A model generated the notes under the pieces. That model did not search any database, had not been told where the DNA came from, and worked only from the letters and a program-made list of their open reading frames with translations. From assembly GCA_937868485.1 (NCBI GenBank), contig CALMML010000350.1:1-42290 (forward strand): 42,290 bases of DNA, in the 5' to 3' direction. The position numbers were made by a program, and so were the translations under genes. Of this stretch, positions 1-42,266 are shown piece after piece (within the stretch, counting starts at the first letter, position 1; every line of letters begins with the position of its first letter). This DNA is from an uncultured Myxococcales bacterium (GTDB taxonomy: Bacteria; Myxococcota_A; Polyangia; Palsa-1104; JAEUJZ01).

Positions 1-848
1 ACCACCGGATTCCACTGCCCATCGATTCCTCGTTCCACCATGATGTTGCTTGGCTTGATGTCACGATGAATGATTCCCAGGCGGTGGGCGGCGTGGATGG
101 CTTCGGACACTGTGCGAACCAGCAGGACCTTGTCATGCAGCGTCAGCTGAGGCGCCAGCTTGTCGAGTGTCTGTCCATCGACAAACTGCATCGCGATGAA
201 GGCCTTTCCTTCCACTTCACCGACTTCGTACACCTTGCAGATTCCGGCGTGATTGATGCGTGCTTGCGCGCGGGCTTCTTGGACGAAGCGCATCGTCATC
301 TGCGGAACGCTGCTATGAACAAACTTCAGTGCGACGATGCGACCCAGTCGCTTGTCTCGTGCTTTGTAGACCGAGCCCATGCCTCCCTGTCCGAGCAGAG
401 AGAGAAACTCGTAGCGCGACCAGCTACGTACTGGAAACTCCTGCGTCTTTGGCTGCATCGCCTCAAAGGCACCGCCGGGTAGCGTCTCACTCGTTGCGGG
501 ATCGGGCTCTCCTTGTGACTGTGCGGATGACTCTGACACCGCGTCCGTAGCAGCGATATCGGGACTCTGCTTGCTTGCGGACGGCTGACTCTTCACTCGT
601 TCTGGGATGCCATCCAAGGTTGTCGCAGTCCGTTCGCGCTGCACTTCCCGGAGCAGACGTTCAATGTCCAGAGAGCTGATTCTCTGACGGTGAATCAGTC
701 GCTCGATTCGAGGACCGAACCGCGTCGGGATGGGCCGGATGTTTTCGAAGGACAGCGGCTTAAGGCTCTCTTCCAAGTCCGAGGGCTTTAGGATCCCTTG
801 TAAGAGCGCACGGCGAAGAATGACTTCTTCCGGAAGCTCATCAGGCAT
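1..848 (-). CDS. Serine/threonine protein kinase, Hanks type (partial, 3' end outside window)
   Basis: Cytoplasmic Ser/Thr kinase reading off the left edge; 282 codons are visible. The first ~145 residues are a charged, non-kinase leader. The kinase fold then starts with the Gly-rich loop GQGGMGSVY (about 153-161), the ATP-anchoring lysine in VALKF (about K175) and the catalytic loop HRDIKPSN (H261, D263). The DFG segment and everything after it lie outside the window, so any C-terminal sensor or transmembrane part is unknown. The start is the ATG at 848; no clear Shine-Dalgarno sequence precedes it. HRD followed by K marks an active RD-type kinase. Such kinases commonly phosphorylate threonines read by FHA domains, and two FHA proteins are encoded in this window (9752-11269 and 38115-39506), but a link is only inference. 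Confidence 0.93.
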   Translation of the reverse strand, partial: MPDELPEEVILRRALLQGILKPSDLEESLKPLSFENIRPIPTRFGPRIERLIHRQRISSLDIERLLREVQRERTATTLDGIPERVKSQPSASKQSPDIAATDAVSESSAQSQGEPDPATSETLPGGAFEAMQPKTQEFPVRSWSRYEFLSLLGQGGMGSVYKARDKRLGRIVALKFVHSSVPQMTMRFVQEARAQARINHAGICKVYEVGEVEGKAFIAMQFVDGQTLDKLAPQLTLHDKVLLVRTVSEAIHAAHRLGIIHRDIKPSNIMVERGIDGQWNPV

Positions 849-38114: not shown

Positions 38115-39506
38115 CTATTTGTCTAGATCGATCTTGTGTGCGCCTGCATCGGGGGAAAATCGCTGCGGATCGATGCCGTGACGCTCGATCAGTCGTCGGA
38201 GCTGCGTGCGATGAAGTCCGAGCGCTCGTGCCGTCGCTGCGACGTTTCCTTGCTGCATGCGGAGTGCTTGTTCGATCCGTGCGCACTCGGCGGGATCGGT
38301 GGCGCGAATCGATGGTGGTGTGTAGTCATCCAGCATCCCTTCCTGCGGCTGTCCCAGCGCCCGCAGGATCGTTCCTGCGCCTTCTGGAAGGTGACGCGAT
38401 TCAATGCGCGGACAGGTCTGGATCGCTGCGTTTTGCACCGCACTGCGTACTTCCACAATCAGCTCGCGGATGTTGCCCGGCCACGGTCGCAGAAGACACG
38501 TCTCGATGAGCGAGGGATGAACCTGCGCCATCGTGGTCGTGCGCTTGACCGCCGCATCAATCAGGTAGGGAATCTCTTCCAGGCGCTTGCGCAGTGGCGG
38601 AATGTGAACGCAAGGTCGCGCGATTCGATAGTACAGATCTTCGCGAAAGCGGCCCTGCGTCACCAGCAGCTTCAGATCTTTGTTGGTCGCAGAGCAGATG
38701 TGAATCTCGACGCGATGCGGACGATTGGCACCGAGCGGCAGCAGCTCTTTGGTTTCGATCACACGCAGCAGCTTGGCTTGCACTTGCAGATCCAGATCTC
38801 CGACTTCATCCAGGAACAGCGTGCCTCCGGCTGCGGCTTGAATGTAGCCCTCTGCATGGCTGTCTGCACCGGAATAGGCACCGCGTCGTGCACCGAACAG
38901 GAGCCGCTCTGCCACTCCCTGTGGAATGGCTGCGCAGTTGACTGCAACAAACGGACCTCCGGCGCGTGGACCACTTTCATGAAAGGCATGCGCGGCCATC
39001 TCTTTTCCTGCGCCGCTTTCTCCGGTGATGTGCAGGGTGTCCCCGAACAGCGCCGACTGCTTGGCGATGGCAAACACGTCTTGCAGCGCTGGTCCCAGCA
39101 CCTTTCCTGCGCTGATGATGACGCCGCGCTGATACAGCGGAGTGATGTCGTGATAGACCGCGAACAGAGAGTCTCCCATCCGAATCACGCGCTGGATTTC
39201 GACCTGCTGCTGCGACGGAATCGGCTTGCCATCGACCGCCGTTCCGTTGTGACTTCCCAAGTCGGTAGCCAGAAAGCGCCGACCATCGTACACAATGCGC
39301 GCATGGCGTCGCGACATCCGCTGGTCTTGCTCCATGTGGTGACTACCTCGACCCACTTCGACAGACCCGCTGATGATAGGAATGACCATCGTACACGGGC
39401 TGCCACTGCGTGAAAGCAGAGCAATTCCGGGACTTCGCTCTGCGGACAGGTGCTGATCGGAGCGCGGTGTCTCCGCCTCCTTCAGGGTCGAGGCCTGGTC
39501 GGACAT
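38115..39506 (-). CDS. Sigma-54-type transcriptional activator: FHA, AAA+, Fis HTH
   Basis: 463 residues from the ATG at 39506. The N-terminal FHA domain has VGRG (51-54), SRRHA (65-69) and GSHNGT (84-89), binding phosphothreonine. The AAA+ domain has Walker A GESGAGKE (162-169), GAYSGA (209-214) in the place of GAFTGA, Walker B LFLDEVG (230-236), RFREDLYYRI and WPGNIREL (342-349). A Fis-type HTH lies at 407-441 (ECARIEQAL, then GNVAATARALGLHR). This is a sigma-54 enhancer-binding protein whose activity is probably set by Ser/Thr kinases rather than by a response-regulator receiver. The altered GAFTGA loop is conservative (F to Y, T to S), so activity is likely retained but not certain. The open frame extends to 39665; those codons lie in the promoter region and start 5' of a TATAAT box. 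Confidence 0.93.
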   Translation of the reverse strand: MSDQASTLKEAETPRSDQHLSAERSPGIALLSRSGSPCTMVIPIISGSVEVGRGSHHMEQDQRMSRRHARIVYDGRRFLATDLGSHNGTAVDGKPIPSQQQVEIQRVIRMGDSLFAVYHDITPLYQRGVIISAGKVLGPALQDVFAIAKQSALFGDTLHITGESGAGKEMAAHAFHESGPRAGGPFVAVNCAAIPQGVAERLLFGARRGAYSGADSHAEGYIQAAAGGTLFLDEVGDLDLQVQAKLLRVIETKELLPLGANRPHRVEIHICSATNKDLKLLVTQGRFREDLYYRIARPCVHIPPLRKRLEEIPYLIDAAVKRTTTMAQVHPSLIETCLLRPWPGNIRELIVEVRSAVQNAAIQTCPRIESRHLPEGAGTILRALGQPQEGMLDDYTPPSIRATDPAECARIEQALRMQQGNVAATARALGLHRTQLRRLIERHGIDPQRFSPDAGAHKIDLDK

Positions 39507-39512
39507 GGGCCC

Positions 39513-39518
39513 ATTATA
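39513..39518 (-). promoter_or_regulatory. Putative -10 box of the FHA regulator (leaderless transcript)
   Basis: Perfect TATAAT on the minus strand, followed by GGGCCC and then the ATG at 39506. Transcription from this box would begin at or next to the ATG, giving a leaderless mRNA. No good TTGACA lies 17 bp upstream; the heptamer cluster at 39532-39587 occupies the -35 region and beyond, implying autoregulation. Confidence 0.5.
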
Positions 39519-39531
39519 CGGGAGAGGACGA

Positions 39532-39587
39532 TGGCACAGGCGATGGCACAGATCGTGGCACAGCGCTGTGCCACATCCGATGTGCCA
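39532..39587. promoter_or_regulatory. Heptamer cluster, probable enhancer (UAS) with an 18-bp palindrome
   Basis: TGGCACA occurs at 39532, 39544 and 39556, exactly 12 bp apart, and its reverse complement TGTGCCA at 39567 and 39581. The third and fourth form a perfect palindrome, TGGCACAGCGCTGTGCCA (39556-39573). It lies between the divergent sigma-54 activator and the ADYC lipoproteins, 150-210 bp upstream of the sigma-54 promoter, the normal position for enhancer sites of such regulators. Binding by the adjacent Fis-type HTH protein is inferred. Confidence 0.72.
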
Positions 39588-39740
39588 GGTGAATCCCTTA
39601 GGTGGGATACCTGGCTCTGTTCCACACAGAATGCGGCGACTGGTCGCGATTCCTAAGCAGTTCAAAAGACAAAGGAATCAGCAGCAGCAGTCGCTTGGGA
39701 GTCCGCCAGGGACACAGGTCAGCGGAGGCTGTTTTCGTCG

Positions 39741-39756
39741 TGGCATGGCCTTTGCC
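39741..39756 (+). promoter_or_regulatory. Sigma-54 promoter of the ADYC lipoprotein genes
   Basis: TGGCATGGCCTTTGCC matches the consensus TGGCACG-N4-TTGCW in all but one or two positions, with the invariant GG (39742-39743) and GC (39754-39755) separated by exactly 10 bp. Transcription should start near 39767, giving a ~110-nt leader before the lipoprotein start at 39880. Confidence 0.75.
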
Positions 39757-39879
39757 TAAGTCTCTGTTCAGATGCGTGAACGTACAGAAAATGTAGTTTC
39801 ATCCCAAGGGATTGCGGGCAGCGCTCGCACGCTACAGATGCTGGACGTTACAACCAACAGCTTGCAGCGGGGGATGTCC

Positions 39880-41040
39880 ATGAAACGCTCTCTGTTTTCG
39901 TCGGTGATCGGTGTCTGTTTGCTCGTCTCTGCGGGATGTAGTGTCGCTGGCGCTGACATGCAGGACAGCGTAGACCGCACGATCAAGGTCTGCACCCGGG
40001 GTGATGGCTCGTGTATGGAGTCAAACTGCGATGAGCTGTATCAGCCCTATCAGGGGCCAGGTAGCATGTTCGGAATGCAGCACCCGGACTGGGGCACCGC
40101 GACCACGTACAAGGTGGTGGGATTCCGGCCTCCGACCGATCTGGAAGTACAAAGCAGCGGTGACAAGCGCTGGATTGTACGCGGCTACGCAGTGACCGCA
40201 GGGGTTCATACCTACGTCGAAGGTCGCGTGGTGGCGAGCAGCTTCAAGAACATCGCCACAACGTTTCTCGAGATGGAAGCCAAGGAAAGTCAGCTGGTGA
40301 TCCGGCTGGACTCAGGCAACGGTCAAGTGCTGGTTGTGGCAAGCAAAGATCTGGTCGGGCTGCGACTGTGGCTGACGGTTCCGAGCCTGAGTGCGCGGTC
40401 GCGTGGAGAGCAGACGTTTGAGTGGTCGTTTGCGAGTCCGCCGAGCGATCTTGCCGATAGCTGGGCGGAAGGCATTCCCATCGTTGGCTATCCCGTCAAC
40501 TGGGAAACCAAGGCAGGTGTAGGCGTTCATCCGCTGTGTGCGGGCGACGGTGGGGCTCCGCAGCGCGCGGTGTTTCTGCAAGGTCAGACCTGGGATCCAG
40601 AGACCTTTGCGCTCAGCGGCAGTGTGACGGATCGAACGGTGACGGTGGCCTGTGAGCTGGGGGCGATCGCTTCGTGCCACAACTGGGGCTATGCTCCGTG
40701 GACGGAAGGGACGCGAACGGCAGATGGTCAGTCCGCGGATATGACTGCGGTGGAGCAGACCTGCATTCGCATGAAGACTGCGGACTACTGCGGAACGGGA
40801 CTGGTTCATACCCAGTACGGAACGCAGATTGTGGTGAACACTCCGATCGAGAAAGTTCGGCATCTGTCGGCTCAGCCGAGGCTGGAAGCCATCTGGAATG
40901 AACATGGTGCGATCTGTGTCATCGACAACAACCGTCGTCACCAGAACATGTACTACGCCTGTGATGCCAGCATTCCGCAGTGTGACAAGGACTACATTGC
41001 GAAGTTTGCTCCGTACTTTATGTCCTCTGGTTTGCCGTAG
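39880..41040 (+). CDS. ADYC-domain cysteine-rich lipoprotein, copy 1
   Basis: 386 residues from the ATG at 39880, with a purine-rich GGGGGA upstream. The signal peptide ends in the lipobox-like LVSAGC (C20). The mature protein has eleven cysteines at positions shared with the next gene: three in KVCTRGDGSCMESNCDE, one in HPLCAGD, two in CELGAIASCHNWGYAPW, two in CIRMKTADYCG, one in AICVIDNN and two near the C-terminus. The ADYC motif (in KTADYCG) names a domain largely confined to myxobacterial secreted proteins of unknown function. The middle region (about 75-190) looks like a beta-sandwich. It is predicted to sit on the cell surface or outer membrane with several disulfides. The frame is open from an ATG at 39772, 5 nt after the predicted sigma-54 start site, but only the later ATG gives a signal peptide. 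Confidence 0.88.
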   Translation: MKRSLFSSVIGVCLLVSAGCSVAGADMQDSVDRTIKVCTRGDGSCMESNCDELYQPYQGPGSMFGMQHPDWGTATTYKVVGFRPPTDLEVQSSGDKRWIVRGYAVTAGVHTYVEGRVVASSFKNIATTFLEMEAKESQLVIRLDSGNGQVLVVASKDLVGLRLWLTVPSLSARSRGEQTFEWSFASPPSDLADSWAEGIPIVGYPVNWETKAGVGVHPLCAGDGGAPQRAVFLQGQTWDPETFALSGSVTDRTVTVACELGAIASCHNWGYAPWTEGTRTADGQSADMTAVEQTCIRMKTADYCGTGLVHTQYGTQIVVNTPIEKVRHLSAQPRLEAIWNEHGAICVIDNNRRHQNMYYACDASIPQCDKDYIAKFAPYFMSSGLP

Positions 41041-41058
41041 CTGATGGTTTCGGTTTCC

Positions 41059-41076
41059 GGCTCTGTTCGCGGAGCC
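41059..41076. other. Short hairpin between the two ADYC genes
   Basis: GGCTC (41059-41063) and GAGCC (41072-41076) pair around an 8-nt loop in the 71-bp gap. It may attenuate read-through or stabilise a processed 3' end; no T tract follows. Confidence 0.3.
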
Positions 41077-41111
41077 AGGTACTCCCAACGATGTTTAAGG
41101 TGAAGACTTCG

Positions 41112-42266
41112 ATGAAAAAGAGCGCGCTATGTTCCGGTCTGTTTCTGCTGCTTGGGGCAAGCTGTGAGCCGAGTCAGGTTGGGTCCGAGCAGTCCACCGT
41201 ACGCGAGCCGATCAAGGTCTGTACACGCAGTGATGGAACCTGCACAGATTCCAACTGCGACGACATCAACCAGCCGTATCAGGGGTCCGGCTCTGACTTT
41301 TCGATGAAAGAGCCGAACACGCTGAGCTATCGCTACAAGCTCACCGGCTTCTATCGGAATGCGACCGGAAGCTGGCTGGTGCGTGGCTATCACGTCAAAC
41401 AGACTCCGCTGTCACCGACGCACGTTCCTGCGGACGGAACGGTCACGGGACTGACGGTCGGGGGCGTGAGTCAGAAGCTGGTCAACTTCGATGCACAGAA
41501 CGGCAATGTGAAGCTTACCTATTGCACGCCAGGCGCGGCGGGTTGTGGGGCCGGCGTCAATGTGGTTGCGACAGGAACGTCTCTGTTGGGGGTGCAGATC
41601 AAGCTGCAAGTGCCCTATGCCCCGGGGCTGACTGCGGGTGGCTTCATCGACTACACGCTACAGTTTGACTCGATTCCGCAGGTCTTGAACCTGGTCAGTC
41701 CCAGCTCTGTGGATGTGCGAGGGTTCAAGTTCAGCTACTTCTACACAGGGCTTGCGCCGCAGTCGCTGTGTCAGGGACCGCTCGGGGTGTCGCAGCGGAC
41801 GTTCTTCTATCAGGACTCCTACTGGCATCCAGAGACGTTTCTGCGTACCCAAGAGGCCAGCGCCATCACCGTCACCTGCGAGCTTGGCGCCATCGCGGCG
41901 TGCATGAGCTGGGGCTATCGTCCGTGGGATACGCGATCCTTCAACAGCAACACCGTGAGCCTGCGATCGTGGCATGCGGCCTGCGTCAACATGAAGACTG
42001 CGAACTACTGCGGCGATGGCGTGGCCTGGACGCGCTACGGAACGTCGATCTATGTAAACGATCCACTGTCGCCTCAGGTGATGGGCGGTAGCTTGGCGCG
42101 ACTGGAAGCATTCTGGGATGAAAACGGCGCGCTCTGTGTCAACGATGGGAATCGCCGTGTGGCGTCGCTGCCGTGGTCTACCTCAAGCTGCTACGCGAAC
42201 ATACCCAGCTGCGACACCCTGGGATCGAGCGCAGCGTCCAGCTTCCTCGGCTCTGCCATCCCGTAG
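41112..42266 (+). CDS. ADYC-domain cysteine-rich lipoprotein, copy 2
   Basis: 384 residues from the ATG at 41112 (an ATG at 41091 adds seven residues before the signal peptide; AAGGTGAAG precedes 41112). The signal peptide ends in LLGASC (C18). It is a diverged tandem paralogue of the preceding gene: KVCTRSDGTCTDSNCDD, CELGAIAACMSWGYRPW, CVNMKTANYCGDG, RLEAFWDENGALCVNDGNRR. The eleven shared cysteines are kept, with one further pair (YCTPGAAGCG) in the middle. The name-giving motif is ANYC here, a conservative change. There is no separate sigma-54 motif upstream, so it is probably cotranscribed with copy 1. It ends 24 bp before the window edge. Confidence 0.88.
   Translation: MKKSALCSGLFLLLGASCEPSQVGSEQSTVREPIKVCTRSDGTCTDSNCDDINQPYQGSGSDFSMKEPNTLSYRYKLTGFYRNATGSWLVRGYHVKQTPLSPTHVPADGTVTGLTVGGVSQKLVNFDAQNGNVKLTYCTPGAAGCGAGVNVVATGTSLLGVQIKLQVPYAPGLTAGGFIDYTLQFDSIPQVLNLVSPSSVDVRGFKFSYFYTGLAPQSLCQGPLGVSQRTFFYQDSYWHPETFLRTQEASAITVTCELGAIAACMSWGYRPWDTRSFNSNTVSLRSWHAACVNMKTANYCGDGVAWTRYGTSIYVNDPLSPQVMGGSLARLEAFWDENGALCVNDGNRRVASLPWSTSSCYANIPSCDTLGSSAASSFLGSAIP

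Follow-up and report, generated by a model that had tools for sequence, protein, structure and literature searches.

A candidate kinase-linked FHA/sigma-54 cassette for tandem ADYC lipoprotein genes in an uncultured Myxococcales bacterium

How sigma-54 activators of the FHA type are triggered and what they control are questions on which a compact cassette of an uncultured Myxococcales bacterium bears. The cassette lies near the right end of the window, the stretch of 42,290 nucleotides that was analysed, and an earlier note had described it as a self-contained, kinase-controlled module in which an activator drives two divergently transcribed lipoprotein genes of the ADYC family.

The activator and the two lipoprotein genes

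The activator gene is located on the reverse strand at 38115–39506, and Pfam finds the FHA, Sigma54_activat, and HTH_8 domains that had been claimed for its product. The open reading frame as called (38115–39665, reverse strand) begins at a mechanical TTG start at 39665, and the start was placed at the ATG at 39506. The FHA domain (39240–39356, reverse strand; Pfam and sequence) possesses the conserved residues of the phosphopeptide-binding motifs VGRGSHH, SRRHARI, and DLGSHNGT. The AAA+ domain matches PF00158 (3.7e-54) and contains Walker A (GESGAGKE), Walker B (LFLDEVGD), and R-finger (REDLYYRI) motifs, and a Fis-type helix-turn-helix, GNVAATARALGLHRTQLRRLIERHG, is encoded at 38175–38249 (reverse strand). 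The L1 loop for sigma-54 contact (38865–38882, reverse strand), previously given as GAFTGA, actually reads GAYSGA, a variant common to the subfamily. Natural variants with GAFSGA or GAYTGA are reported to retain activity at sigma-54 promoters (PMC6615313), and Tyr is the sole tolerated substitution for the loop Phe of PspF (PMC2941729). GAYSGA combines the Tyr and Ser changes, and this double variant may be functional as the single variants are reported to be. Activator surveys have been filtered on GAFTGA (PMC12316311) and would miss a GAYSGA subfamily. The orthologs of the activator are 81–87% identical, and the source genome (G000) carries one copy of rpoN, the gene for sigma-54, a factor that M. 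xanthus cannot do without. In an NCBIfam equivalog search with the activator, no model passed its cutoff.

The Walker A and B motifs, R-finger, L1 loop, and inverted half-sites 150–200 bp upstream of a −24/−12 promoter are shared with enhancer-binding proteins of the NtrC/PspF type, whereas here an FHA domain replaces the receiver or GAF domain and the loop is GAYSGA. The combination of FHA, sigma-54 AAA+, and Fis helix-turn-helix domains is that of the FHA-domain enhancer-binding proteins of Myxococcus xanthus, which Jelsbak, Givskov, and Kaiser (PNAS, 2005; cited in PMC4320627) are said to have described with a proposed link to Ser/Thr kinases. In contrast to those proteins, kinase, array, −24/−12 promoter, and target are found here in one locus, the loop is GAYSGA, and the cargo is ADYC.

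Both downstream genes on the forward strand, at 39880–41040 (lipoprotein 1, 386 aa) and 41112–42266 (lipoprotein 2), match the ADYC family PF20032 as had been proposed, with E-values of 1e-36 and 4e-34 and scores of 127 and 118.7 bits versus a gathering score of 27. In the lipobox of the predicted signal peptide, C20 is invariant in all 15 relatives compared. The starts had been placed at 39772 and 41091 and were corrected to 39880 and 41112; for lipoprotein 1, the start was placed by its start context, GGGGGAtntcnATGAAn, which is common to three species. A coding extension from the ATG at 39772 was rejected: although three species keep this frame open, their aligned codons, by inspection, differ mostly non-synonymously. 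The activator and ADYC genes are under purifying selection (dN/dS 0.10–0.23, simple pairwise method). A PDB fold search with the predicted ADYC structure (pLDDT 77, pTM 0.77) returned nothing below an E-value of 0.2, and no mention of the ADYC domain (PF20032) was found in a literature search; the cassette would give the family its first regulatory setting.

Given the start at 39880, the 5' leader (39767–39879, forward strand) is approximately 113 nt long and contains the conserved blocks GTACAGAAAATGTAG and ACAGAAAATGTAGTTTC (39785–39825, kept in the genus). An RNA element was considered and rejected, since the sequence is conserved but does not fold in any unusual way (z −0.8 to −1.2), and an Rfam scan of the leaders from two related loci (L035 and L036) gave no match.

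Half-site array, promoter, and their conservation

A cluster of heptamers had been described, and five exact TGGCACA/TGTGCCA half-sites are indeed present within 56 bp (39532–39587), at 39532–39538, 39544–39550, and 39556–39562 on the forward strand and 39567–39573 and 39581–39587 on the reverse strand, against a chance expectation of approximately 5e-9 per window. The array includes an 18-bp palindrome, TGGCACAGCGCTGTGCCA (39556–39573), which occurs once in the 6.36 Mb of the source genome and so supports the description of the module as self-contained. The array is 26 bp away from the start of the activator gene, and a −10-like TATAAT box (39513–39518, reverse strand), kept in two other members of the genus, is 6 bp before the activator ATG. 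Because of this short distance, and because the array overlaps the −35 region, leaderless and self-repressed expression of the activator is suggested. Between the array and the promoter (window 39650–39720) there is a second motif that is repeated, as GCTTGGGAGTCC and, inverted, as GGACTCCTAAGC; it recurs in the intergenic regions of paralogous modules (L035, L038, and L012) and is a possible binding site for another regulator.

The −24/−12 promoter, TGGCATGGCCTTTGCC, was found where it had been predicted, at 39741–39756 on the forward strand, with a predicted +1 at 39767. Its core, TGGCATGGCCTTTGC (39741–39755), is the sole strict match to TGGCAYG-N4-TTGC in the window (0.07 expected). Across the genome, the strict string occurs 5 times versus 4 for a reversed control pattern, so that the string by itself is poor evidence and a chance match has to be weighed. 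Against chance, TGGCAYG-N4-TTG precedes ADYC in eight loci, where approximately 0.0005 would be expected per 300 bp, and the box forms an island of identity within poorly conserved DNA; a fortuitous match is therefore considered highly improbable, and the case for the box is carried by its position and conservation. In several paralogous promoters (TTGT, TTGG, and TTGA), the −12 dinucleotide differs from GC, which counts against control of the cassette through sigma-54 as proposed below.

Orthologous divergent loci were compared in three genomes of the same family as the source genome, G002 (JAEUKB01, a 'Myxococcales bacterium' MAG), G001 (CALLYL01), and G003; the near genomes are all drafts, at least two of them MAGs. 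The earlier note had regarded loss of the −24/−12 box or the heptamers from such loci as fatal to its idea, and all three loci keep both the array and TGGCATG-N4-TTG. The distance from the first half-site to −24 is 206–209 bp in four loci, and the DNA between is poorly conserved. Three further groups retain this layout in altered form. A paralog on contig C110 carries TGACACA-N7-TGTGTCA together with TGGCATG-CTTC-TTG. In tandem paralogs (C112, G002:C53, and G001:C111), TGACACA/TGTGTCA lies between activator and ADYC, with TGGCAYG-N4-TTG beside ADYC, and G007:C179 has CGGCACA half-sites. A recognition helix with Arg (HRTQLRRL) pairs with GG half-sites in five loci and one with Thr or Lys (HRTQL(T/K)RL) with GA half-sites in four. 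Because the half-site changes match the changes in the recognition helix, these pairings support the array as the activator's own predicted binding site, the loci representing a few related groups rather than independent events.

The position of the array, so close to the activator start and over its −35 region, could also mean that it is mainly the activator's own operator and that the ADYC promoter uses another factor. The fixed spacing to −24 argues against this explanation, as do the tandem paralogs, in which the half-sites are away from the activator promoter and the −24/−12 box is beside ADYC, and it is judged improbable.

In the source genome, all three activators of the subfamily adjoin ADYC genes. 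The subfamily was found in 38 of 193 sampled genomes of the class, and among the loci retrieved from outside the order, none has an ADYC gene near the activator; linkage across the class was thus rejected, and the association that the earlier note had suggested seeking across myxobacteria holds for this order, to which the link of ADYC-domain proteins with a sigma-54 module appears confined. In genus g26 (L070, L073, and L075) and the related L069, the gene divergent from the activator encodes another kind of lipoprotein, one with CxxCH motifs; these four loci contain a −24/−12-like box, TGGCACG-N4-TCGCT, and three of them have a GGCACGTGCC palindrome between the two genes. A CxxCH lipoprotein gene is also near the activator in L045 and L048. 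Since relatives outside the order carry such a lipoprotein, the general kind pairs an FHA activator with a lipoprotein encoded beside it, and ADYC is this order's cargo.

The adjacent kinase and a proposed mechanism

A Ser/Thr kinase gene is convergent to ADYC in all eight related modules (L035, L036, L037, L011, L012, L038, L039, and L041). The kinase of L035 (G002:C20, 43533–47069) is 1179 aa long, possesses a kinase domain, a transmembrane segment, and TPRs, and ends 140 bp from the second ADYC gene. The window ends 24 bp past ADYC 2, before the expected kinase position. The best match in the source genome for the kinase of this module is on contig C15, in the right orientation and interrupted, and C15 probably follows the window after a short gap. 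The location of the kinase on another contig and its interruption count against the mechanism proposed below; intact copies are present in G002 and G007. Of the kinase-controlled module claimed earlier, the adjacent kinase was thus found in the related modules, and signalling from kinase to activator and dependence on rpoN are presumed.

Based on the conserved array, box, and spacing, the matched half-sites and recognition helices, the unique palindrome, the presence of rpoN, the kinase adjacency, and purifying selection, local control of the ADYC cassette by a kinase through the FHA activator and sigma-54 is considered likely. The membrane Ser/Thr kinase encoded beside the lipoprotein genes, outside the window, would phosphorylate a protein, and the FHA domain of the activator would bind the phospho-threonine. 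This binding may free the AAA+ ring or assemble it on the TGGCACA array, from which the ring could loop over approximately 150–200 bp to the sigma-54 polymerase at 39741–39756 and open the promoter for both ADYC genes, which we infer to be co-transcribed. Binding to the array, which overlaps the activator promoter, would probably also repress the activator gene. With several diverged copies of so compact a cassette and their matched half-sites, a single reporter construct could serve to test how Ser/Thr phosphorylation leads to sigma-54 transcription.

Interrupted kinase genes

Interruptions affect most module kinases and fall mainly at the catalytic-loop codons HRDxKP|xN. In L011, L036, and L038, the kinase ORF starts exactly at (Q)PSNIM, and in L037 it starts just before HRD; a 9-bp core is duplicated on both sides of the insert in the three loci for which both sides were available. 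In C112 of the source genome and C53 of G002, the N- and C-lobes are separated by 4.5 kb containing cysN, cysD, and a ClC channel gene; the insert is flanked on both sides by AGCCGTCTA, the arrangement is common to the two species, and both kinase halves are under purifying selection (dN/dS 0.13–0.22, simple pairwise method). The insert in the C15 kinase is 4.8 kb long and bears a further kinase gene as well as a 16-bp duplicate. A pure assembly artefact was rejected for C112/C53, where both junctions are common to two species and lie on long contigs, and group I/II introns were rejected as a cause of the splits, as no Rfam match was obtained. Interrupted module kinases were recorded at window 1–848, L112 (C110) 7653, L102 3063/7606, L110 10416/14999, L101, and L116 5507/L036 535.

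These interruptions, together with the many other kinases in the genome, would fit an activator that controls ADYC with its FHA domain served by another kinase or working free of phosphorylation, the adjacent kinase being a relic or unrelated. This explanation is regarded as rather unlikely, since the kinase is adjacent in every one of the eight modules, its split halves keep the low dN/dS given above, and the gene is intact in two genomes. Control by the adjacent kinase is thus preferred.

The insert ends have a common motif, CTTCCS-N24-(T)CTCGACGGA, which is present in 41 copies in G000 versus 3 for the reversed control and in 40 versus 6 in G002, and is close to background levels in most of the other genomes searched. 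Many copies border directly on kinase C-lobes, and some directly follow a Phage_integrase (PF00589) gene; PF00589 was found at insert ends in L122, L191, L192, and L195, and the module inserts seen whole are without an integrase. In G002, three integrase ends with 89–95% identity adjoin three different kinase C-lobes. The counterpart of the filled C104 kinase of G002, C445 in G000 (78% identical DNA), is empty. An apparent family of mobile elements targeting Ser/Thr kinase genes is enriched in G000 and G002. Gene-interrupting recombinase elements include nifD/XisA and sigK-skin, which the kinase inserts resemble in the tyrosine-recombinase genes at several ends, the short direct core repeat, and the retention of both gene halves. 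Unlike those elements, the inserts target many kinase genes, at their catalytic-loop codons.

Because both halves of the shared split are under purifying selection, a second switch at the DNA level is tentatively put forward, though considered less likely than not: tyrosine-recombinase elements would interrupt the module kinase and many other kinases of the genus, and reversible excision would restore the kinase. If so, rearrangement of the DNA would turn the lipoprotein circuit on or off, as happens with nifD elements.

The left end of the window (1–848, reverse strand) encodes an N-terminal fragment of the Ser/Thr kinase that belongs to a neighbouring paralogous module (C110), with which it has an exact 55-nt overlap, as expected at an assembly branch; the two appear to be one gene. 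The window reads across an uninterrupted HRDIKPSNIM site and represents the empty site, and C110 represents the filled one. Two strains in the MAG could also account for this pair.

Tyrosine-recombinase genes were further observed beside the end motif, mostly with a kinase fragment, at L190 9796, L191 2597, L192 10427, L195 5995, and L196 8790, and L122 728 has an integrase and the core without the end motif. In L197 (G000:C381, 6337–10205), two head-to-tail units of 1908 bp (1907/1908 identical) separate the N- and C-halves of a kinase gene, an arrangement suggestive of two integrations of a small circle.
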